Below are positions 6,152 through 38,432 of a stretch of DNA of 44,271 bases, piece after piece. Under the pieces are notes generated by a model. The model was not told the DNA's origin and made no database searches. It was given only the letters and a program-made list of their open reading frames with translations. Position 1 is the stretch's first letter. Each line of letters opens with the position of its first letter. The translations under genes were made by a program, and so were the position numbers. This stretch comes from a virus, in the IMG/VR virus record IMGVR_UViG_3300046170_000174, positions 1 to 44,271 of that record; one strand, given 5' to 3'.

Positions 6152-6620
6152 ATGGCATACCAAAAATTACAAGGATATAGAGCATGGCCTGTTAACAAAT
6201 CAGACTTAACAGACATTCCAAACATAGGAATAGTAGGTCCAAGTGGAACAACAACATCTGCTGCAACCAAGCAACTAATTGATAGCAATGCAAACTTTAC
6301 TGCAGGAAACAGTTCAAACTGGTATGATCGTAGTAAATACTACAGATGGTACTCAGACAACAGTCCTGAGTATAGAGAATACAACCACGTTAAACTTGAC
6401 TGATGATATTATGGCAAATGCAAAGGCTTATCAGTTATACGATGGTAATCAAGAAGGTGCCGTGTTGTATATAGGTACAGCAGGAAATTTAAAAGTAACA
6501 ACCGTAGGTGGTGATGAGGTTACTTTTCAAGGAGTAAACACAGGAACTTTTTTCCCAGTGAATGTAGTTAAGGTTTTTGCGACAGGAACAAGTGCTGATA
6601 ACATAATAGCTCTTTGGTAA
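6152..6620 (+). CDS. small virion protein, beta-rich (about 155 aa, one frameshift)
   Basis: Begins MAYQKLQGYRAWPVNKSDLT (start ATG 6152). The frame shifts by one base at about 6310-6320, going from ...NANFTAG(N) to VQTGMIVVNTTDGTQTTVLS, and runs on to 6620. Joined, the protein gives a continuous beta-rich sequence with NLTDDIMANAKAYQLYDG and a C-terminal PVNVVKVFATGTSADNI. It resembles small phage structural proteins found before tail fibres. The two halves overlap only as an artefact of the shift. Function is inferred from context. Confidence 0.7.
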
Positions 6621-6621
6621 T

Positions 6622-6762
6622 ATGCCGTCATTTATTGCCATAGGGAATTGGATAGGACAAAGAGAAGCGGGGCAAGCTCCGTTTGGAAGTGAAGATATTA
6701 TAACTGAACTTTCAATCCAAATGGTTTCAGAATTAAATAGTAATGACTTAATAACAGAATAA
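6622..6762 (+). CDS. 46-aa hypothetical protein
   Basis: Reads MPSFIAIGNWIGQREAGQAP, then FGSEDIITELSIQMVSELNS, then NDLITE. The ATG follows the previous stop by one base and the product ends 11 nt before the next gene. The N terminus could be a short surface-binding segment and the C-terminal half is helical. Likely a virion accessory protein by position only. Confidence 0.5.
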   Translation: MPSFIAIGNWIGQREAGQAPFGSEDIITELSIQMVSELNSNDLITE

Positions 6763-6773
6763 ATTAAAATAAA

Positions 6774-7438
6774 ATGGCAGTAAAATTTTCACAATTTACA
6801 ACAGGTTCTTCTCTAGCAGATATAGATTATTTCGTTGGATATAAAGGAACTGACAATATACAAGTAGCGAAGTCCTTGCTATCTGGTACAACTTATACAG
6901 TAGATGTCCCAGCAGCAACAACTAATATTAACCTAGCAGGTAGTGATGGTACAAATGATGCTATTACTTTGATTGGTGGTACTGATATAACATTAGCGCA
7001 TACAAGCACAAGTTCAATAACAATTAACTCTACAGCAACTGGAGACACTTATGATTTAAATGCTACTGCTGATGGAAGTAATGTAGATTTAAATTTAACT
7101 TCAGGTTCAGGTACGTGATAATTCTGTTGTACAGTTTACTGCAGGTACAGGAATTACTTTAACTAGAACTGGAGCTCAAGAAATAACATTTGCTTCTGCC
7201 GCAGGTACTACAGTTGTCAAGGATCAGTTTACAGGAAACAACTCAACAACAGCATTTACATTATCAGTAACGCCAACGGCAGCTGCTAATCTGAATATAT
7301 TTATTAGCGGTGTATATCAAAACTCCAAAGATTCTGGGGGAACGGCGAAACTATACAGTTGCAGGAACGACATTAACTTTCGCAACAGCGCCACCGACAA
7401 CCGCAGCAAATGGAATAGAAGTAGTAATAACACAATAA
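6774..7438 (+). CDS. tail-fibre-like structural protein (about 220 aa, two frameshifts)
   Basis: Begins MAVKFSQFTTGSSLADIDYF, an N-terminal type (KFSQF..G....D.D.FVGY) common in phage fibre or adaptor proteins. It continues with a Thr/Ser/Asn-rich beta region (TNINLAGSDGTNDAITLIGG; FTAGTGITLTRTGAQEITFA) and ends VAGTTLTFATAPPTTAANGI plus EVVITQ. One-base shifts are needed at about 7112-7117 and about 7340-7352. All three segments fit together as one protein ending at TAA 7436-7438. It is first in the row of fibre genes and could be a fibre hub or short fibre. Confidence 0.65.
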
Positions 7439-7448
7439 CGTTTAGCTC

Positions 7449-8406
7449 ATGGCAACAAACAAAGTAACTACAAACGTAATTGACATGAGTGGTAACACTG
7501 GAGGTCTAGTGTGGGCTAAGGGAACTACAGGCTCAAAGACCAACGGGAGTTGCTGGAGACCTACGTTTAAATACAACAGACAGCAGACTCGAATACAAAG
7601 ACAACGTAGAATGGAAAAGATTTTCTGAAACAACATCATCTGGACCTCCTGGAACACAAAACGCTGAAGTTTTTATGGTAGGTGGAGGAGGAGGAGGTGG
7701 AGCTCAAAATAACGTAAGTGGTGATTATCCTGGTGGTGGAGCTGGTGGGTATACCACGACTACAGCCACTATAGCTTTATATGGAAACGTAACTGTTAAT
7801 GTAGGAGCTGGTGGAGCAGCCGGAGTTTTAGGTGTTAGCGCACCTGGGGTTATTGGAGGAACTACAAGTATAGTTAACAGTGGAACTACGTATTCTATTG
7901 GCGGTGGACAAGGTGGTGCTCAGAGTTATAAAGGAGGAGACGGAGGTTCTGGTGGTGGAGAAGGCCAAAGCGGTGGTGGTGGAACTGATGGAAGTGATGG
8001 TGGAGGTGGAAGCCAAAGAGGAATTGGACAAGGGACAACAACAAGAGAATTTGCCGACTCTGGTAGAACATTATATTCTGGAGGTGGTGGAGCTGGAAGA
8101 TGGAGCAGTCCAACACCTGGTGGAGCAGGTGGAGGTGGTGATGGTCAGAGTGACAACTATAACCTAGGTGGGGGTACAGCAGGTACTACTAATTTAGGTG
8201 GAGGTGGAGGTGGAAGGTCTACTTATCCAACACCAACACCAGCTCAAGGGTTACCAGCTTATCCTGGTGGTTCAGGTATTGTGGTGGTAAGGGTCAATAA
8301 AAGCGCTATTACAGCAAACATAGGGGGATATTCAAGCACTAATTCAGACGCAACTTATAATTATTATGTTTTTAATAATTCCACAACAATGACAGTAACA
8401 ATATAA
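7449..8406 (+). CDS. tail fibre/adhesin with glycine-rich domain, paralogue 1 (318 aa, one frameshift)
   Basis: Start MATNKVTTNVIDMSGNTGGL. A one-base shift at about 7537 restores an N-terminal anchor module: RPTGVAGDLRLNTTDSRLEY, KDNVEWKRF. The rest is a glycine-rich domain (MVGGGGGGGAQNN, then long GGGGxxG tracts) of the type found in phage tail-fibre tips, where polyglycine helices form a receptor-binding lattice (known for the T4-like S16 adhesin). The C terminus is beta-like (GGYSSTNSDATYNYYVFNNS). The anchor is shared with the fibres at 9094 and 10156. Likely determines host binding. Confidence 0.8.
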
Positions 8407-26052: not shown

Positions 26053-29000
26053 ATGGCAAACATTCAAAGAAATTTTATAGCTGGCCGAATGAATAAAAGC
26101 CTAGATGAAAGGCTTATACCTAATGGTGAATACATAAATGCTGTAAATGTTAGATTGGGTTCTACAGAAGACTCTGAGATTGGGGCTGTTGAAAACTCTA
26201 AAGGAAATATACCTTTAACAACCCTACAATATGTTGATGGAACACCATTAAGTTCTCAGGCTAGATGTATAGGAGCTTTTGAAGATGGAGCTAATTTAGT
26301 TATATATTGGTTTGTTCACGACCCTGCGTTTACGCAAGGAGCAACTGGTAAATTAGATTTAATTGTTTCTTTTGATGTAGAAACAGGCGAACTTATTTAT
26401 CATGTTATTAGTATAGATAATGGAAATGGTGTAGATACAACTTTAAATTTTAATCCAAATTTTCTTATTACAGGTGTTAATAAAATAGATAATTTATTAT
26501 TTTTTACAGACAACACAAACCCTCCTCGAGTAATTAACATTAATAAAAATTATGGAGACCCCAGACCAGCAGTATTAACTGATGATTTTAATCAGGTAGA
26601 TATAATGGTTATAAAAAAACCACCAACCAGCGCACCTACAATTACTGTTTTTAATGTAGCTAGTATTACAGATGCGTATTTAGAAGATAAGTTTATTTGT
26701 TTTGCGTATAGATATAAGTATGATAACAACGAGTACTCTGCAATATCTCAATTTACCGAACCTGCTTTTAGTCCTCAATCTTTTAATTTTAGTTCCAATA
26801 GTTACTTAAATGAAGGAATGATTAATAGGTTTAATGCTGTAACTATAAATTTTAATACAGGAGATGAACGTGTAATTGCTGTGCAGGTTGTTTTCAAGGA
26901 GTCAAATTCTTCAACTATAAAAGTTGTAGAGACTTATAATGTAAGTAACAGAGTTCGATATCCCGTAAACACAATCGTGAACGAAACTTTTACAAATCGA
27001 AAAATATACACTGTATTGCCTAGTTCAGAAATTTTAAGATTATATGACAATGTTCCACAGCTTGCTAAAGCTCAAACATTAATGGGGAATAGATTGGTAT
27101 ATGGAAATTATTATGAAGGGTACGATTTAAAAAGTTCTAATGGTACATCTGTAGATTTTAGTTTTGAATCAATTTTAAAAAGTGAAGATATAAATTTAAC
27201 ATCTATAAAAGCTAATGAAGCAAGGGGAGCTGCATATACTATAAACCCACCAGGATTTACAGCACCGGCAGTTGAAATTGATGATAGTGTTTTTTATGTA
27301 GATTTACTTCCAGCAGTTCCTTTGCCTAACAATCCAAAAGGGTTTTTAACTGCAGGAGCTACATTGACATTTACGTTTGGAATAGCTTATGCTAGTAATT
27401 ATGCTACTTCAACCCCAACTCCTGTTCCTTTTGAAGATGTTGTATTTGTGACTTGGAGTTATACTTTAATTAAAGATTACATTTCTGTAAATGCCTTAGC
27501 AACTGATGCAGATTTTGTAGATAAAATAGGTACTCTTTCTACTATAAAACCTATAACAACAGCTTCAACTGGTTTAACTTTAACTGATGTTTTTAATGCA
27601 GCCTTACCTTTAACGTTTGATTCAACTTATACTAATCTAGTTCAAACTGGAAGAACTTCATCTACACCTACAGCTCCTGCTGGCCAGCCTTTAGAAATTA
27701 TAACGAGTGCTACAAGTTATAAAATAGGTATACAAGCTAATGCAGCTGTTTATGATAAAGGGTCAGCGCCTTTAAATCCAATAATTGCTTATTTAAGATT
27801 TACCAATGTATCTGCTGAAATAAGAACTGCACCATCAATAGCAAGTTTACACAGTAATAGAGGCTACGAAATAGGAATGGTCTATATGGATGACTTTAAT
27901 AGAGCATCAACCGCTCAAGTAAGTGAGTTTAATTCTGTTAATTTACCATGTAATCTTTCAAATCAAAAAAATTATATTCAAGTACAAATTCCAGAGTCTC
28001 AACAAGCGCCTTTATGGGCTACTAAATATAAGTTTGTTATAAAGCCTACAAAAAGCAACTATGAAACAATATATAGTAATATAGCTTATAGTGAGTCAGG
28101 AACAAACTCTTCATATTTTTTATTAGAAGGAGAAAATGCACAAAAAGTAGAAGCTGGAGATAGGTTGATTGTAAAAGCAGATTCAACTGGCGCAATAAAT
28201 AATTGTACATACGCAACAGTTTTAGAAAAAGAAGCACAGGCTGCAGGTTTTATTAAAATTTATGATGATGCTGGAGATGAACTAGAAGTATTCGGAGGAA
28301 CATATATGAAAATTAATGCTTCTAATTTTGTAATCAATACAACTGAAGATGCAATTATTAATAGTCAAGTATTGCCAAGCACTGCTAAAGGTGCACAAAA
28401 TTCATACCCAGTTGTAGCATATCCAATGTTTACAGCAACTCAAGCGTCAGGTGTGGTTGCCACTACATTAGTTTATGATGTTCCTGTAGGCACAAGAATA
28501 AAAATGGAGTTTGAGTTTAGAAGAGATGGAGTTCCTGCGGATAAAAACAATGCTTGTTTAGAAAAAAGTTATACGTTAGTAAAAACTTTTACTGCATCTA
28601 GGGATTATGGAAATATGCAAGAATGGTTTGAGGGTGACAATATAGCTTTAACTTTAAACGAAGGAATAGAAACGGTAGCTGAAGATGAGTCTATAGTCAA
28701 TAGTTATATACCTACACCTAACACATCTCAAAATTTTCCACCGTTTCCGGTTACAGGAGCAAAAAGTGTAACTCAATACAATGCAGTATTAACAGCAGAT
28801 GAAATTAAATCAGCAACATATTTTGGTTCTACAGCAACTTCGCCTAACACCGATTTTTATTATAGGTTTTATGTAGACCAAGTTTCAAACAACATATATT
28901 TATTAGTATCAGGTTCTAGCTCTTGTACTACAGGTGCTGACCAACCACATAGAGAATCATCAGTAAAAGTTAATTTTACAATATCAAGAGCTAATTCAAC

Positions 29001-31020
29001 TTATGTATTTGAAACAGAACCAGAAGAAGCGTTAGCTGATGTATGGTACGAGAACAGTGAGTCATTTGATATAAATGGAGATTTTCATTTAGGGAATGTG
29101 CAAAATCAAACATTAAATCAGCCAGGGATTGTTAATACTGGATTTTTTAATTGTTATGCTTTTGGAAACGGAGTGGAAAGTAATAAAATACGAGATTCAA
29201 TTAAAGGTGAACAAGTTACTCTAGGTAACAGAACTTTTACCACTTCTAATGAAGAATACAAAGCTGCGCATAGATTTGCTGATTTAACGTACAGTGGCGT
29301 ATTTAATGATGAATCAAATGTAAACAGACTTAATGAGTTTAATCTAGGGCTTCTTAACTTTAAGCCTTTAGAAGAAACTTATGGAGATGTAGAAATATTG
29401 TTTGCAAGAGAAACTGATATACTAGTTTTACAAGAAGATAAAATTTCTTATGTACTTGCAGGTAAAAATTTATTATCTGACGCTGTAGGAGGTGGAGCGG
29501 TAACTTCTGTTCCTGAAGTATTAGGAACACAAATAGCTCGTATTGAAGACTATGGTATAAGTAATCATCCAGAAAGCTTTGCAGAATTTGGTGCGAACAA
29601 ATTTTTTACAGACGCAAAAAGAAATGTTGTAATAAAACTTACAGGTAGTTCAGCTCAGAATGAACAACTTACAGTTATTTCTAATGAAGGTATGCGAAGC
29701 TGGTTTAGAGATTTATTTGCTGAAGCATCTGCAACCCAAAAATTAGGAGGGTATGACCCTTATATGCAAGAATATGTTTTTACAACAAACACAATTGTAA
29801 AGCCAGAGACAGAGTTATGTACAGCTTGTGGAGTTACAAAAAACATTACAATTGTTGCTGGTCAAGAATTTGTCTATTGTGTCGATATAGGAGAAGATTC
29901 TGGGCCTCCGTCTAACCAGTACTATGTAGAAATAGATTATGTTATACCTTTTGAAAATACAGACTTAATAGTTACTGAGGGAACAGAGCAGCAAGTAGTT
30001 ACGGAAGCAGGAGTAGATATTGAAACTGAAGGACAAGTTACGGGAACAGGTTATACCATTCAAGCTATATATGATGGAGTAACTTACACTACTGGGATTG
30101 TTTACCAAAGCGGAACTTTAGTATTTCCAAAACCTAATCCAACGCCTACTGAAGTTGTCATGATTGTTTCGTCAGATGCAATAGTAAACGACACAATTCA
30201 GGTAACGGTAAAATGTCCAGAAGAAGAATTGTTTAGTGTTTATAGTATTACTTTATCTACTAATGCAAATGCTAATCAATTTATTCACACTGAATATTCT
30301 TGGAAAGATTCTACTGTCACATCTCCAATTCAGAGTGATTTAGTTACATTTATATCAAGTCCTAACGACCCAGTTGTTTCTCAGTATAGAGAATTAGAAG
30401 GGCCTCAAGGTTCAAATATTATACCTCCAGATGGAGCAACAATTACAGTAAGGTCTAACAAAATTAATTTTGATAATTTTCAATTTGACCCTACTGAAAA
30501 TGAATTTAGATATTTAAGAACCGATGCTCTGTATGAAAACAACTCAACTGACATGAGTATTTTATTAGCTGCTTCAGTTCAAGCAACTCCAATTAACACA
30601 AGCGATGCCCCCAATTTATATAGTGCGCAATTTGGGCTTCCTTCACTGGGTAATAAATTATATTTAATATATGATTTAAGAAATTCAATTGGGCAAGAAT
30701 TATGTTATTCATCAACAAGTTTATTTGATGCTTGTTGTAACTGTACGTTTACCCCAACACCAACACCTACGCCTACACCAGTCCCTTCACCTGTAATACC
30801 AACTTATGATTATTTTGTAGGTATTAATTGTGTAAGTTTAGAGGCAGTATATTTAAAGTCCAACACTACTCTTGGAGTGGTGGTTGGAGATGAAGTTCAA
30901 TATTCTTTTGGAGGTGCTGTAGTGGGATGTGCTTCTTTATACGCAACTGATGGAACAGGAAGTAGTGGTGAAGTAACATTTAAAGTAGCAGGATGTGGAG
31001 ATTCAAGATGTTCAGTATAA
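26053..31020 (+). CDS. large stabilisation/tail-hub-like virion protein with C-terminal Pro/Thr linker (1655 aa)
   Basis: Intact, 1655 aa. N terminus MANIQRNFIAGRMNKSLDER, LIPNGEYINAVNVRLGSTED recalls a conserved tail-stabilisation protein family of Bacteroidetes phages. Most of it is beta-rich, including FADLTYSGVFNDESNVNRLN and ILFARETDILVLQEDKISYV (propeller-like). Near the end [20 protein letters not shown] is a Pro/Thr stalk leading to one Cys module (YDYFVGINCVSLEAVYLKSN ... CGDSRC), the same design as the next protein. It is probably attached near the tail or capsid vertex, with the Cys module exposed. Translation is coupled to 25131 by a one-base gap. Confidence 0.75.
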   Translation: MANIQRNFIAGRMNKSLDERLIPNGEYINAVNVRLGSTEDSEIGAVENSKGNIPLTTLQYVDGTPLSSQARCIGAFEDGANLVIYWFVHDPAFTQGATGKLDLIVSFDVETGELIYHVISIDNGNGVDTTLNFNPNFLITGVNKIDNLLFFTDNTNPPRVININKNYGDPRPAVLTDDFNQVDIMVIKKPPTSAPTITVFNVASITDAYLEDKFICFAYRYKYDNNEYSAISQFTEPAFSPQSFNFSSNSYLNEGMINRFNAVTINFNTGDERVIAVQVVFKESNSSTIKVVETYNVSNRVRYPVNTIVNETFTNRKIYTVLPSSEILRLYDNVPQLAKAQTLMGNRLVYGNYYEGYDLKSSNGTSVDFSFESILKSEDINLTSIKANEARGAAYTINPPGFTAPAVEIDDSVFYVDLLPAVPLPNNPKGFLTAGATLTFTFGIAYASNYATSTPTPVPFEDVVFVTWSYTLIKDYISVNALATDADFVDKIGTLSTIKPITTASTGLTLTDVFNAALPLTFDSTYTNLVQTGRTSSTPTAPAGQPLEIITSATSYKIGIQANAAVYDKGSAPLNPIIAYLRFTNVSAEIRTAPSIASLHSNRGYEIGMVYMDDFNRASTAQVSEFNSVNLPCNLSNQKNYIQVQIPESQQAPLWATKYKFVIKPTKSNYETIYSNIAYSESGTNSSYFLLEGENAQKVEAGDRLIVKADSTGAINNCTYATVLEKEAQAAGFIKIYDDAGDELEVFGGTYMKINASNFVINTTEDAIINSQVLPSTAKGAQNSYPVVAYPMFTATQASGVVATTLVYDVPVGTRIKMEFEFRRDGVPADKNNACLEKSYTLVKTFTASRDYGNMQEWFEGDNIALTLNEGIETVAEDESIVNSYIPTPNTSQNFPPFPVTGAKSVTQYNAVLTADEIKSATYFGSTATSPNTDFYYRFYVDQVSNNIYLLVSGSSSCTTGADQPHRESSVKVNFTISRANSTYVFETEPEEALADVWYENSESFDINGDFHLGNVQNQTLNQPGIVNTGFFNCYAFGNGVESNKIRDSIKGEQVTLGNRTFTTSNEEYKAAHRFADLTYSGVFNDESNVNRLNEFNLGLLNFKPLEETYGDVEILFARETDILVLQEDKISYVLAGKNLLSDAVGGGAVTSVPEVLGTQIARIEDYGISNHPESFAEFGANKFFTDAKRNVVIKLTGSSAQNEQLTVISNEGMRSWFRDLFAEASATQKLGGYDPYMQEYVFTTNTIVKPETELCTACGVTKNITIVAGQEFVYCVDIGEDSGPPSNQYYVEIDYVIPFENTDLIVTEGTEQQVVTEAGVDIETEGQVTGTGYTIQAIYDGVTYTTGIVYQSGTLVFPKPNPTPTEVVMIVSSDAIVNDTIQVTVKCPEEELFSVYSITLSTNANANQFIHTEYSWKDSTVTSPIQSDLVTFISSPNDPVVSQYRELEGPQGSNIIPPDGATITVRSNKINFDNFQFDPTENEFRYLRTDALYENNSTDMSILLAASVQATPINTSDAPNLYSAQFGLPSLGNKLYLIYDLRNSIGQELCYSSTSLFDACCNCTFTPTPTPTPTPVPSPVIPTYDYFVGINCVSLEAVYLKSNTTLGVVVGDEVQYSFGGAVVGCASLYATDGTGSSGEVTFKVAGCGDSRCSV

Positions 31021-31044: not shown

Positions 31045-33720
31045 ATGGCAACAACAGGAACATATTATTATAGCTCATCTAGCTTTTCAACAGCTACAGC
31101 ATTATTTTTAGATGCAGCTTTAACTAGTTTTGCGCCTGATGGATGGTATTCAGACCAATCAATATATAGGCAACAAGCATCAGGAGTTTTATTTGCAGAA
31201 ACATCATGCCCTAACTGTGGTACACCAGTCCCTGTTCCAACTCCAGTAGTTTACGATTACAAAATATACACTGAATGTGTTGGAACTGGAACACAAGTTT
31301 TTAGAATAGTTCAAGGAGGAACTTTTCCACCTACTGTTGAGTATAGTGGTATTTGTTATTATAACCCACAACCGACTGGGTTAACATCTATTATAAATGT
31401 AAATGGTTTAGTAAGTTATGCTGACTGTGCCGCTTGTGGTACAACGCCTACTCCAGGACCAACGCCTACTCCAGGACCAACGCCTACACCAACGCCAGTA
31501 CCCACAGTTTCTTATGATTACAAAGAATATAATGCGTGTGGCGGAACTGCAACACAAATATTTAGATTGATTTCACCAGGCACATTTGAACCAGTTTACT
31601 TATATAATGGAACATGTTATGAAAATCCTTCTCCAACGGGGTCTACTTCATCAGTAGATGCAGCAGGGCTTTCATTTTATGCTAATTGCGGAGCGTGTAC
31701 ACCAACACCAACACCTACGCCTACACCAACACCTACACCTACGCCTACAGCATCCGGGACTGAAATTTTCTCGACTAACACAGTTGGAAATGGACAAAGT
31801 GCTTCCAGTATTGCTTGTCCACTTCAAGCTACCAATAGCATGTATACAACAAGAGCAAATGTAGCTTCGATACAAGTAAATGATATAATATATACAAACT
31901 CTGGACTGACTAATATTTGGAACGGTGGTCTTAAATGGTATGGTGTAACAAATGTAAATAGTCATTATCCAAACTTAGATAGTGGATATGCTTTATTAAT
32001 TAGTGCACTTGGAGTTGTTGATTCAATTGTAGATTGTACAGCGCCACCTAGTCCAACGCCAGTTCCAGCAGCTGCTACATTCCAAGATGTTGAAATAAGA
32101 CAATGTTTTACAACAACACCGACTTACAAAGTAAGAGTTACAGGTTTAACAGCCCCAACCTTAGCTAATGGTATTGTAATACAAATAACGGGCGCAGCTA
32201 GCGCACCAAACCCAGAGTTTACTGGCTCTACTTGTTGGGAAATTATTGACAACGCTGCAACATCTTTTGATTCTTCAGCCGCTCTTAATTCTACATTTAG
32301 TAGCTGTTCAGCTTGTGGAGCAACACCACAATATAATTACGCTATATATACGGAATGTCAAACTTCTGCAACTATAGTACTAAGAAAACTTACTACAACT
32401 GCTAGTTTCCCTAATTTTGTAGAGTATAATAATATTTGTTACTCAAGCCCAGTTCCAACTACAGCTACATCACTTATTAGTGTTGAGTCTTTAACAAGCT
32501 TCAACAATTGTTATGATTGTGAAAACCCATCAATGTTTATTAATGGTCTACCTCAAGGGGGATATACATTAGCTGATGGATGTGTTGCGAGAACAGATTA
32601 TTTTGTGTTCTCTAATAGAGCAACAGTTGCACAAATTGTGGTGGGAGATATATTATATGCTAACTCTTCTAAAACAACTGTGTTTGATGGAGGTTTAGAA
32701 TATTTTAGTATATCAAATACATTAGGACATTTGCCACAATCTACTGATAGTAAATATTTAATTAATTCTTTAGGAGAAGTTTTAACTATATTAAGTTGTT
32801 CATCTACGCCTACGCCTCCTACGCCTACGCCCGTGCCATCACCAACTACTAACATTCAAGTTAGAGATTGTGCTGATGCTAGCAGAACGGCTTACATAAC
32901 AGTAGCTGGAACTTATTTATCAAATGCAATTGGAGTTTCTCTTAAAATTAGTGGTGGTGCTGGTGGTTCATGTCAATCAGGATTTAATGGAACTAAATGT
33001 TGGGAAATTATAGCAGTAAATACGGTTTCAGATTGTAGCGTAACGACAGTTTCAGTACAAGGAAGTTGTGGTGGATGTACACCAAGTCCTACTCCAACGC
33101 CAGTTCCAGCTCCAACGCCAGCTCCAGTTCCAGTTGCACCAGTGCCAACACCTACCCCAGTCCCTACTCAGTCTGTTTATTATTTTAATATTGATAGATG
33201 TGATGGAAGCGTAGGAACATTTAGTAATGTAGCTACAACTTCTATATTATCAGAAGGACAATCAGTAAAAATGGCTGATGGCCATTGTTATGAGTATGGT
33301 GGAAGTGTTGGTATAATTAATTCTAATTCTCCCGTAGCTATATATAATAATTGTACTATTTGTTTAGCATCAATTCCGACTCCGACTCCGACTCCGACTC
33401 CGACTCCGACTCCGACTCCAGCTCCGACTCCGACTCCGACTCCGACTCCAGCTCCGACTCCTACTCCAACGCCTAGTAACCCGTCTATTAGTTTAGAGTA
33501 TATAGTCCAGAGTGGTCCTTCGCCTGTTCCAAGTTTTACTTGTAGTGGATACACTACTTTTTACATGAACACATCCGATTTCTGTACAGCTACAAACTTA
33601 TACAGGGATAGCGCAGGAACAAGAGGAGCTTTTGCAGGATACTATAACACAGGTTCTTTCTATAGATTTTGGAATGGTAGTTCATTTACACTTTCATGTA
33701 CATCTACAAGTTGTCCATAG
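31045..33720 (+). CDS. Cys-module / Pro-Thr-stalk virion protein (891 aa)
   Basis: Intact. About nine small modules (60-90 aa) joined by stalks such as [20 protein letters not shown] and [19 protein letters not shown]. Module type [21 protein letters not shown] ... [11 protein letters not shown] ... YADCAAC (copies at about residues 68, 155 and 430). Type [10 protein letters not shown] ... CWEII ... SCSAC (twice, plus a variant DGHCYEYGG). Type C: residues about 240-330 and 515-600, both with GG(L)(K/E)(W/Y)(Y/F). First and last modules ([40 protein letters not shown]) are alike. Paired cysteines suggest disulfides or metal. No signal peptide. Likely a displayed, extensible adhesin; the family is not named to my knowledge. 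Confidence 0.7.
33376..33473 (+). repeat. hexanucleotide tandem repeat encoding Pro-Thr/Pro-Ala stalk
   Basis: CCGACT repeats almost without change, with CCAGCT units encoding Pro-Ala in between. The stalk lies just before the last module of the 891-aa protein. Such identical hexamers can gain or lose units in frame, changing stalk length. Confidence 0.85.
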
Positions 33721-33773: not shown

Positions 33774-35073
33774 ATGGAGGAAATACACAATTATATTACG
33801 CCACAGGAGTGTCAAGAACTTATTAAAATGATTGACGCAAACCATTCACGCTCTTCAGTAGTAGTAGGAGGCACAGACCGAACTGATGTTACTAATCATA
33901 GAACATCAAGCACATCTAATTTAGACATGAATACCCCTGTAATGTCTAAAATAAAAAAACAAATATCTGAAACATTGGGATTGGAACTTGTTAAAGGTGA
34001 AGCACTTCAAGGACAACTATACGAACCTGGTCAATACTTTAAACCACATAATGATTTTTTTAGTGGACCAGCTTATGATATGCACTGTAAGGCATCTGGC
34101 AATAGAACACATACTTTAATGATATATCTTAATGAAGATTATAAAGGGGGTGGTACATATTTTCCAACACTACAAAAAACAATAAAACCCGAAACAGGCA
34201 AAGCTTTGTGGTGGCATAATTTAAAAGACGGAAAAGTTCAAGAACAATATTTACATGAAGGTGTAACGGTAGATGAGGGTAAAAAATATGTTGTTACTTC
34301 TTGGTGGAGAGAAAAAAGTTGGGATGGAGCTGGAGATGAAAAAATGTATTACGATTCTAAAAAAGAAAATACAGTACAAAAAATAGAGGATAGTTCAATT
34401 GTAGAAGGTATGCAAAATAAATCTTATATAGTTAAAGCATCCGAGACTGAAAACTTAAAAAAAATAGTAGAAAAAAAAGAATTTACTAACGTAGATAATT
34501 TTCCTCGATTTACAGATAATGGTTTTACTTTAATTAAATGTCCTGACAGAAACCTGGAATTTAATTAATGAATCTTACGAGTTACTTAAAGATAAAAAAG
34601 AAACAGAAGATTTTGAGGTAAAGAACAGATTTATTGTTGGAGGAGATTCTGACATAATGTCGTTTGACCATTTGCCACCGTAAGAACAATGATACACGAC
34701 CAGTTCTTAAATCTCATCAAGACTGGGTTAAAAGAATTTTAAACCATCTTTTATTTATGGTATACGGTCATACACAAAAGGAGCTACACTAACTCCACAT
34801 GTTGATAGGATAGCTACACACCACATATGCTCTATAATTATAGTAGATAAAGATTTAGCTTGTGGTTGTTCAAATAAACCATGAGTCTGATGATTGGCCT
34901 CTTGATATTCAAGGTCACGATGGAGAATGGTATAAAGTATATGCTCAACCAGGAGATATGATACTTTATGAATCAGCTGTGTGTGAGCACGGTAGAAAAG
35001 AAGCTTTGGGGGGACACATTTTAGAAATTTTTACGTACACTATAAACTAAAAGACTGGGTATATAAGCCATGA
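33774..35073 (+). CDS. tandem 2OG-Fe(II) oxygenase, prolyl 4-hydroxylase-like (about 430 aa, several frameshifts)
   Basis: Oxygenase that uses O2, Fe(II) and 2-oxoglutarate. Domain 1 (residues 1-180): FKPHNDFF gives iron ligands H92 and D94, GGGTYFPTL, then LHEGVTVDEGKKYVVTSWWR with distal H161 and 2OG-binding K171 at H+10, as in prolyl 4-hydroxylases. Domain 2, rebuilt across shifts near 34550, 34677, 34740, 34881 and 35022: FIYGIRSYTKGATLTPHVDR (HxD), PLDIQGHDGEWYKVYAQPGD, MILYESAVCEHGR, FRNFYVHYK (distal His), ending VYKP at TGA 35071. It sits between Pro/Thr-rich virion genes. Substrate is inferred, not shown. Confidence 0.8.
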
Positions 35074-35720
35074 GCAAATCAATAATAAATGATTATACTG
35101 TTGTTACTTGTGTAACCGGAAATTTTAATAAAGTACATAAAACAAATATTAAAAACGCTATAGTATACACTACATTAAGAGATGTTGAGTTTACTGAGCA
35201 TGCTACACAAAACGGATGGCAGGTTCGCATTTTACCATTTACACACTCATACGATTTAAGAGAAGGAACAAGACAATCCAAGTATGTTAAATTTTTAAAG
35301 TATCATATTCCTGAAACAAAGTATGTAATTTATATAGACCATAAATATAAAATACAAAACATTCATGCAATAAAATTAATAGAATTAATTGGAAACAATT
35401 CTTTTTTATCTTTTATAAATACTTCAAGTATATATCATGAATTTTTTAAATCTTTAAGTTTTCCTAGATATAAAAATGATATAGATGAAATGATAAAAAC
35501 AATTACAGAAAATGAAAATAAAGGTTATGATGATTTAAAATTATTTTATGGAGGCATGATGGTTTACAACACAACCCATCAAAGATTTAAAATTATAAAA
35601 CAAAAAATGGAAGAGTATACTGAAAAATACTATCATGTTCAAGACCAGTTATTATTTCCTATAGCAATAAAAGATGAAACAAAGGTTTTGATTCATAATA
35701 CTATTGATTTAAAAACATGA
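35070..35720 (+). CDS. glycosyltransferase-like protein (DUF616/TOD1-MUCI70-like)
   Basis: 216 aa. DYTVVTCVTGNFNKVHKTNI, then WQVRILPFTHSYDLREGTRQ, SKYVKFLKYHIPETKYVIYI, DHKYKI: the K.LKYH..PETKY.IYID..Y.I layout is that of a glycosyltransferase-like family known in plants and bacteria (PF04765-type), with D-x near the DxD position. The end has DLKLFYGGMMVYNTTHQRF. The start overlaps the oxygenase stop (ATGA), so the two are coupled. A shift at about 35715 might extend it by about 12 residues (EHIQEPIPNKTY) to TAA 35755-35757. Confidence 0.6.
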   Translation: MSKSIINDYTVVTCVTGNFNKVHKTNIKNAIVYTTLRDVEFTEHATQNGWQVRILPFTHSYDLREGTRQSKYVKFLKYHIPETKYVIYIDHKYKIQNIHAIKLIELIGNNSFLSFINTSSIYHEFFKSLSFPRYKNDIDEMIKTITENENKGYDDLKLFYGGMMVYNTTHQRFKIIKQKMEEYTEKYYHVQDQLLFPIAIKDETKVLIHNTIDLKT

Positions 35721-35760
35721 GCATATTCAAGAACCTATACCTAATAAAACATATTAATTA

Positions 35761-36588
35761 ATGATAAGATTTTTACCTAGCGCAATAGTTGACCCTCGAT
35801 ATAAATGGATGGCAAACTTTTGGGCATACTGCCAAAAAAAAGTATACGGTAAGGATGCTTTATATAATAGTCTAGTCACTATTGTTAATCAAAATACATA
35901 TAATAGTAACGTATATAATTCAGTCGATTGGGATTTACTTGGATTCCTCATTACATAAGTCCTCCGATTTGGAATTACGTTAATAGTAAAAATGATTTAT
36001 GTATAGTTATTAATGTCGTTTCTTCTTTAAAACCCTTGCTTAAAGATTTTGATGACAACGATACTTTAGTTTTGTGTGATATGGATATGGTTTTATTAAA
36101 ACCGTATGATGGTATTTTACCTGACGATAACACTATTATTTGTTATGATGGTTACGAAGATTGGCACATGTTTATAGCTAATAAAGAAAAACAAAACTAT
36201 AATAAAATAGTACCTTATTTAAAACATCAAGAACAGGGGTATATGAATGGTGGCTTTGTTCCTATTTTTATAAAAGCAAAACTTTTAAAAAAAATTATAG
36301 ATGAATTAATATCAACTGCTGAAGAAATTGTGGAGTCTAAAGAAGAGTCCAACATGGAAATGGTGGAGCTGTATGACTGCTTTATCAATAGTTTGTCATA
36401 ACAATAAAATTAAAATGGTTGGTCAAGACAATACTTATATTCCTAATTTTAATCACTTTAACCAAGACAAACATTACTTCGCACATTATAGCGTAGACCC
36501 TATATTTAATAAAAGAACTTTTCCTAATCATAAAATAACAAATACCCAAAAAACGATTTTTACAACCTTATTAAGGAATGGATGGTAA
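35761..36588 (+). CDS. glycosyltransferase with DxD motif (about 275 aa, two frameshifts)
   Basis: MIRFLPSAIVDPRYKWMANF, then NSVDW, shift near 35935, GFTWIPHYISPPIWNYVNSK, LVLCDMDMVLLKPYDGILPD (DxD-type DMDM), then QGYMNGGFVPIFIKAKLLKK. A second shift at about 36350 leads from ESN to WKWWSCMTALSIVCHNNKIK and HYSVDPIFNKRTFP. The DMD..L.KP core, the GG.VPI..K...LK.I stretch and the late W...CM.AL.I helix recall hydroxyproline O-arabinosyltransferases of plants; this match is loose and from memory. A nucleotide-sugar transferase is the safer call. It is last in the modification cassette. Confidence 0.6.
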
Positions 36589-36610
36589 AATAAAAGAATT
36601 ATTAAATTCG

Positions 36611-36618
36611 TAAATTTG
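36611..36618 (+). promoter_or_regulatory. -7 box (TAAATTTG)
   Basis: TAAATTTG is 16 nt before ATG 36634. Confidence 0.55.
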
Positions 36619-36633
36619 TAACAAATATACCGA

Positions 36634-38432
36634 ATGGCTTGTAAGTCATATTTGTCGTGTCCTATAGAAGCAGTAGGAAGCTCCACAGCTATATGTTCAT
36701 GGATAGTTACTTGTTGTGAAGGCAAAGAAATACAAATTGATGTTCCAGTAAACACATTTGCTGTTTATTGTTTGGATAATCCTTCCCGTAATAATATAAT
36801 ACCTAATTCAAACGGTGGGGGAGTGGACTACTAAATACCTAGAATGTGAAACCAAATGTGGGGATGCTAACCCGACCCAATAGAAGGGTATATATATTAT
36901 GAATATGAAAATTGTAATGCGGCAAGTCAGAAACAAATATTTAGAGCTCCAGCCGGTTTTACTGCGTGGCCTGACACTATTGGCTTATCAATCGATTTGT
37001 TGGAGCAAATGGTGTTAGCGTAACTAATATATCTTATTTAGATGTTGCTAATATACCTACGTATGCAGATTGTGCTACTTGTGCAACAGCAATAGCTCCA
37101 ACACCGACGCCACCGACGCCACCGACGCCACCGGGTACTCCTGAATATTGTTTAAGTTTTACTAATACACTAACAGTTTCTTCAAATGCAGTAGAATTTC
37201 CTGATATTTTAAATTTACCTGACACTTCAGTAAGTTTTTATGTGATTAATGGAGCTTGGGGTATTTATCAAGTAAGCACTGGTGTTTATCAAATAACAGG
37301 TGTGTCTGCAGAATGGCCAATAGCATTTTTAAACAATGGAAAAGAAAATTTAATTTCATACACAGGGACAAAACTAGAAAAAGATGCAGTTGCTTTAGAT
37401 GGAAATACATACTCATTTTATTCAGGTACAATAACATTAAATGTAAACGAAGATTTTGGAACTATTAGTTATCAAACATTATATCCTGAGTCTACAAATG
37501 GACAATACTTTTTAGGTGAAAATAATTTAAGATTTAGCACGGATTGTAATCCTTCAAACCCTCCAACCCCAACACCGCCTAGTCCAAGTCCGACACCACC
37601 AAGTGTTGTTCCTCCTATACCTTCACCAGTTGATACTGAATGGACAGTAAGTTATAGTGAAAACTCAAAAGGTTGGCCTTCATTTTATTCTTATATCCCA
37701 GAGTATATGATAGGGATGAATAATTTCTTTTACACATTTAAAGGAGGTAATTTATACCAGCACAATGTAAATGAAAAAAGAAACAATTATTATGGTGAAC
37801 AATATAACTCACAAATAACAAGTGTATTTAATCAAAACCCACTGGAAAATAAAGTATTTAAAACACTAAACTTGGAATCTAATGATGCTTGGGAATCTTA
37901 TTTAGAAACTGATATACAGATAAATGGTTTTATGGAAGATGGTTGGTTTGAAAAGAAAGAAGGAGCTTGGTTTGCATATCTTAGACAAAGAGGCGAAGTG
38001 CCAGCACTTGAAGGGCAATACGCTATGAGGTCAGCTAATGGTATTGGTAAAACAAACAATGTAGCGATTACACAAGGTACAACAACTTTAAGTTTTTCAA
38101 CTGACCCACTTGTATCTATAGGAAACTTTATTAGTGTAGGTGATTATGTATACCACTCACTACCACAATACACTGAAATTTCTTACGGTGGTATTGTGAC
38201 ACAGATAAATGTAGATTTACAGAACAATATAAATGAATTAATTGTAAGTACTACTTCAGCTGACACAGTTACTTTTCCGCTAAATGACCCATACATTATG
38301 TTTATAAAAAGTTCTGAGGCTGAATCTCATGGTTTACTAGGACATTATTGTATATTTACTATAACTAACTTTAATACTCAAGCTACGGAACTATTTGCAG
38401 TAGAGAGCGATGTAATGAAAAGCTATCCGTAA
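36634..38432 (+). CDS. virion protein with Cys modules, Pro/Thr linkers and a conserved C-terminal domain (about 600 aa, three or more frameshifts)
   Basis: MACKSYLSCPIEAVGSSTAI opens a Cys-rich module. Shifts at about 36835, 36880 and 36995 give LECETKCGDANPTP, YYEYENCNAASQKQIFRAPA and ISYLDVANIPTYADCATC, a type-A module as in the 891-aa protein. Linkers APTPTPPTPPTPPG and NPPTPTPPSPSPTPPSVVPP follow. The C-terminal 280 residues have SENSKGWPSFYSYIPEYMIG, MNNFFYTFKGGNLYQHNVNE, NNYYGEQYNSQITSVFNQNP and LENKVFKTLNLESN, a conserved block of Bacteroidetes-phage structural proteins (similar sequences occur in crAss-like phages). Probably anchored to the virion by this part. Confidence 0.7.

Follow-up and report, generated by a model that had tools for sequence, protein, structure and literature searches.

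Hydroxyproline-linked glycans occur in plants, algae and protists. In the protist Skp1 pathway, a cytoplasmic prolyl 4-hydroxylase (P4H) acts first and is followed by a hydroxyproline GlcNAc-transferase and later by Gal and Fuc enzymes. To our knowledge, hydroxyproline-linked glycans are unreported in phages, and we know of no hydroxylase step described for phage virion glycosylation of the Maravista type. The literature searched, which was open-access only, held no description of phage hydroxyproline glycosylation. Virion glycosylation by phage-encoded glycosyltransferases (GTs) was suggested for mycobacteriophage Maravista (PMC11256854), and the P4H of chlorovirus PBCV-1, a virus-encoded enzyme, converts proline-containing peptides sequence-specifically (PMC7019647). 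Plant AGP dipeptides are AP, SP, TP, VP and GP, and plant hydroxyproline O-arabinosyltransferases (HPATs) are described as related to GT8 (PMC4908140).

The cassette and its enzymes

IMG/VR record IMGVR_UViG_3300046170_000174, a virus record of 44,271 bases, was analysed over its whole length (the window). It belongs to a crAss-like phage, as is seen from hallmark structural features of that group: terminase, portal and head genes, a muzzle C-terminal domain (MUZ_C) and structural homologues in Cellulophaga and Flavobacterium phages. A GroEL-like chaperonin ORF at 1096-2508 (phrog_5725, 1e-113) is a phage-encoded chaperonin. At 33774-36588, on one strand, a two-domain P4H and two GT-A glycosyltransferases lie amid three virion genes with alternating Pro-X stalks; an earlier note on this DNA had placed the cassette between genes for three stalk proteins, and the flanking genes do bear Pro-Thr and related stalks. 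The features are as follows (loci of related phages are cited by L number).

26053..31020, + strand: large structural protein (1655 aa), proposed substrate; its homologues are structural proteins of Cellulophaga and Flavobacterium phages, and a short Pro-X stalk of 7 repeats lies near its C-terminus
31045..33720, + strand: 891-aa virion protein, proposed main substrate, in which six Pro-X stalks (54 repeats in all, most of them Pro-Thr) carry Cys-containing domains
33774..35050, + strand: two-domain P4H-like 2OG-Fe(II) oxygenase, assigned by Pfam, by a P4H profile against the PDB and by an intact 429-aa homologue (L002:3-1292)
35070..35720, + strand: GT1, a glycosyltransferase of GT-A fold (AlphaFold model) with a conserved Y-x-D-H-K and no Pfam family
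35761..36588, + strand: GT2, an HPAT-like (PF23452) GT-A glycosyltransferase with an invariant DxD, in three broken frames (intact in L002, 277 aa)
36634..38432, + strand: Pro-rich stalk protein with a crAss muzzle C-terminal domain (PF25729, Pfam, 7.9e-19), in several broken frames (one ORF in L002, 2859-4628)

The P4H was compared with the PDB by using a profile built from two intact homologues. Nine of nine matches are named P4H or derived from P4Hs, the best being 5iax/5hv0 (4.5e-31), with human P4HA2 (7e-22) and Chlamydomonas 2jig (6e-20) among the others. Domain 1 is unbroken at 33774-34568 and matches 2OG-FeII_Oxy_3 at 2e-12; the HxD...H iron triad and 2OG-binding Lys read there earlier (H92, D94, H161 and K171) were confirmed, do not vary among 10 diverse homologues and align with those of solved P4Hs. 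By sequence, the solved structures nearest to domain 1 are peptidyl P4Hs, and the substrate of the enzyme would be proline. The HxD and distal His reported for domain 2 are likewise present, in broken frames at 34534-34680, 34732-34881 and 34859-35047. Annotated phages yielded no two-domain P4H over most of its length and no HPAT-like GT2.

The broken frames stem from single-base indels, roughly twelve when set against L002, which are clustered at 34547-37007; the preceding 5-kb gene is intact. All three cassette genes are intact in L002 and L003 (∼99% identical in GT1), and in L002 the P4H forms one 429-aa ORF (3-1292), followed by GT1 (1289-1975, overlapping by four bases, ATGA) and GT2 (1979-2812). 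Because the breaks are single-base and confined to one stretch, and because these close relatives are intact, a local patch of assembly or read error is probably their cause. True gene decay was set aside as the likely cause on the same grounds, although this one genome may have decayed.

The fold search proposed in the earlier note for the two genes beside the P4H returned GT-A enzymes for both AlphaFold models. The GT1 model (pLDDT 85) is nearest to GT6 enzymes (best Z 11.7); a DUF616 identity, which had also been suggested, found no Pfam match, though a remote kinship may exist, and GT1 matches no Pfam family even at E up to 1. The GT2 model (pLDDT 89) has GT8 glycogenin as its nearest structure by Z (Z 15.5, 218 residues, rmsd 3.4), its DxD is invariant across an alignment of 16 homologues, and a PDB sequence search with its profile gave no match. 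The likeness to HPATs, noted loosely at the outset, finds weak but real backing in relatives: PF23452 (hydroxyproline O-arabinosyltransferase, GT95) matches six of 11 viral records, two above the gathering score (25.8 and 25.2 bits vs 23.9) and four below, and none of 14 control genomes, but the broken-frame copy in the window reaches only E 0.15. The operon of a P4H and two GT genes described earlier thus holds in that both products are predicted to fold as GT-A enzymes and the genes are coupled in relatives, but not as two clean GT ORFs in the window, since GT2 is spread over three frames.

Proposed stalk glycosylation and its sugar genes

The best reading of the locus, and as a whole a probable one, is that the phage encodes the hydroxylation and hydroxyproline O-glycosylation of its own fibre or muzzle stalks. 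That the stalk prolines are hydroxylated is itself quite likely; that sugars would sit on the hydroxyproline is somewhat less so. The two-domain P4H would convert prolines of the Pro-X stalks (X = T/S/V/A/I/G) into 4-hydroxyproline in the host cytoplasm, and cytoplasmic GTs, here the HPAT-like GT2 and GT1, would add and extend sugars on the hydroxyprolines. In relatives, the sugar step could be taken by PF11397, O-FucT-like or GT32-like enzymes, and some relatives have NDP-sugar, carbamoyl, deacetylase and sulfotransferase-like genes of their own. For the virion, the product would be a stiff polyproline-II rod clad in sugars, which would hold receptor-binding domains apart and could vary its coat as GT cargo is exchanged.

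At the stalk positions of P4H-bearing loci, T/S/V/A/I/G make up 98% of 4202 X residues, and these stalks carry the AGP-like module in which X-Pro recurs, X being A, S, T, V or G. Proline alternation is conserved while X drifts. An origin of the stalks as DNA microsatellites was ruled out: proline codons within the arrays have mixed third bases, the same as outside them, so the alternation is kept at the protein level. Stretches of the PVPVPV kind, free of Ser and Thr and as long as 47 residues, occur in L097, L045, L039 and L203-L206. An O-linked sugar on such a run could only sit on hydroxyproline, though it may sit elsewhere in the protein. In the short contig L202, the gene before the P4H (802-1698) has a Thr/Ser-rich run (TTTTSTSTTTTTSS) in place of a Pro-X stalk, and in L004 a small nucleotidyltransferase-like ORF (7581-7994; no Pfam match) stands between a (PV)n stalk gene and the P4H.

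The genes downstream of the P4H were surveyed in about 100 loci and vary widely. They include HPAT-like GT2, GT1, PF11397 GlcNAc transferases, O-FucT and GT32-like genes, as well as NDP-sugar dehydratases (one closest to dTDP-glucose 4,6-dehydratase) and carbamoyltransferase, PIG-L deacetylase, radical SAM/SPASM and sulfotransferase-like genes. Enzymes of PF11397, the GT60 and Skp1-hydroxyproline transferase family, stand behind the P4H in many relatives, although Pfam found none in the window cassette; the family exceeds its Pfam gathering score in L050, L055, L069, L101, L107, L321 and L277. In L107, a PF11397 domain (4.6e-37) is fused to an HPAT-like domain (4.1e-5) in a single ORF behind the P4H. 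Four loci (L080, L081, L085 and L086) have no gene between the P4H and the muzzle-C gene, which, together with the varying cargo, marks the P4H as the constant part and the GTs as exchangeable. Phages that otherwise differ (L069, L104, L113-L115 and L321) share a radical SAM/SPASM gene adjoining P4H and PF11397 genes. We lean slightly towards the wider view that a complete, modular hydroxyproline O-glycosylation system may coat receptor-fibre stalks in bacterial viruses, in analogy to the extensin/AGP pathways of plants and the Skp1 pathway of protists, with a fixed P4H core and GT cargo swapped across unrelated phages.

The two activities could also be separate, the P4H hydroxylating and stiffening the stalks and the GTs glycosylating stalk Thr/Ser or other virion sites in a mucin-like, hydroxyproline-independent manner. 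Such a division would suit the Thr/Ser-rich composition of most stalks (T+S, 67% of X in P4H-bearing loci), the inclusion of Ser/Thr-type GlcNAc-transferases in GT60 (PMC8724618) and the P4H without an adjoining GT in L080 and L086. It is nevertheless unlikely: long PV or PA runs lack Ser and Thr altogether, GT genes adjoin the P4H in three loci with such runs (L097, L045 and L039), and HPAT-like and PF11397 genes follow the P4H in one operon, once as a fusion.

Distribution of the P4H and the stalks

Throughout the family, runs of alternating Pro-X adjoin the P4H. Co-occurrence was assessed on contigs with the large structural gene, those without a P4H being required to extend at least 4 kb downstream, and a dense stalk was defined as eight or more PxP within a stretch of 40 residues. 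Dense PxP was found in 58 of 58 P4H-bearing crAss-like loci vs 0 of 43 relatives without a P4H, the latter including Cellulophaga phi19:3, a Flavobacterium elemo phage and MW202828; stalk proteins are absent from these relatives, which share the structural genes. As expected, L185, whose sequence stops directly behind the structural gene, groups within the P4H clade and does have stalks. In a first tree, the P4H carriers formed one main clade, so the contrast of 58/58 with 0/43 mainly reflects one event, and its treatment as independent points was dropped. A structural-protein tree with more rows shows at least two P4H origins, with L203, L205 and L206 apart under a long-branch warning, and subject to that warning the crAss-like phages appear to have acquired the P4H twice or more. 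The P4H tree, for its part, needs two or more switches between the crAss-like and the remaining phages.

Two-domain P4H genes are found in at least five phage lineages, and beyond the crAss-like phages they accompany stalks in L107 (a contractile-tail phage with a tail sheath), L108/L109, L101, L114 and L201. In six loci, among them L232 and L201, a search at nucleotide level for P-[T/A/S] runs came back empty; the irregular stalks of L201 escaped it and were seen on translation. The co-occurrence that the earlier note had proposed to check stands, and in several lineages.

From the stalk side, a scan for (PT)6 gave 80 loci, of which six (L308, L326, L321, L277, L282 and L322) have a P4H-like 2OG oxygenase near the stalk gene. 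In L308, L326 and L321 the stalk gene is followed by a single-domain oxygenase and then by epimerase, GT, PF11397 or radical SAM genes, in L277 PF11397 lies near a stalk gene with a 2OG oxygenase, and in L322 a gene (6462-6833) that resembles only the part of the P4H from the linker into the second domain stands directly behind a Pro-Thr stalk gene, the contig ending inside it. Within the DNA examined around the other 74 loci, no P4H was found, so the presence of Pro-Thr stalks is not enough to infer hydroxylation.

Exceptions also run the other way. In the 52-kb contig L232, which is perhaps incomplete, a P4H and an HPAT-like gene were seen but no stalk gene; to that extent this contig touches the counter-case named in the earlier note, a cassette in a phage without a Pro/Thr-rich virion protein. 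No stalk gene is present in the partial contig L240. No stalk was found near the single-domain P4H-like genes of cultured phages of Erwinia, Microcystis, Synechococcus and Salmonella, and one scan of bacterial genomes gave a single partial relative (L243), without a stalk gene.

Phages often carry sugar genes, and in the partial contigs L212 and L240 the P4H appears to lie beside a ribonucleotide-reductase-like gene, not tail genes; with the single-domain homologues located away from stalks, this would fit a moron that modifies host surface glycans or proteins and for which the tail genes are only a tolerated insertion site. Such a role is quite improbable in view of the tight match between P4H and stalks, the absence of stalks where relatives have these structural genes but no P4H, and the recurrence of the match in unrelated lineages. 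Action of the oxygenase on another target in the island (a sugar or another virion domain), leaving the stalk proline alone, is likewise quite improbable: 2OG oxygenases are diverse and domain 2 could serve some other role, but domain 1 is nearest to peptidyl P4Hs among solved structures, has all four motif residues and accompanies stalks whose proline alternation is kept while X drifts.

Comparison with known systems

If hydroxylation and hydroxyproline O-glycosylation of the stalks are borne out, the cassette would provide a simple, cytoplasmic, operon-encoded route to sugar-clad polyproline rods and would let the virions of widespread marine crAss-like phages vary in a further, new way. HPAT-like and GT60-like enzymes would then occur outside eukaryotes, which would bear on the origin of both families. 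The proposed modification is directly testable, having a fixed mass and known stalk peptides.

The cultured cyanophage S-SCSM1 (L252, record 92-117 kb) carries, close to a tail-fibre gene, four 2OG oxygenases and several GTs together with O-FucT, carbamoyltransferase and GDP-sugar genes. It resembles the present cassette in this pairing of 2OG oxygenases and sugar genes near a tail-fibre gene and offers a cultivable analogue, but its oxygenases are single-domain and the region read contains no Pro-X stalk gene.

The hydroxyproline-rich glycoproteins of plants and green algae, in which a P4H is followed by HPAT (GT95) or Hyp-galactosyltransferases, share with the phage system a P4H with an HPAT-kin GT, X-Pro repeats with X = A, S, T, V or G (PMC4908140) and, in GT2, a GT8-like fold. 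They differ in that the phage system is phage-encoded, operates without a secretory pathway, has a virion protein as its proposed substrate and exchanges its GT cargo among relatives. The protist Skp1 pathway is matched by the order of a cytoplasmic P4H and then PF11397-type GTs, and by fucosyltransferase-like genes in phage relatives; the phage, in contrast, has many repeat prolines and a multi-GT operon, and the window cassette yielded no PF11397 gene. With PBCV-1 the likeness is a P4H encoded by a virus, but that is a small algal-virus enzyme, whereas the present one has two domains and is encoded in an operon with GTs beside the stalk genes of a bacterial virus. In mycobacteriophage Maravista, phage GTs are likewise thought to decorate virion proteins; in the crAss-like cassette, unlike there, a P4H is the constant part.
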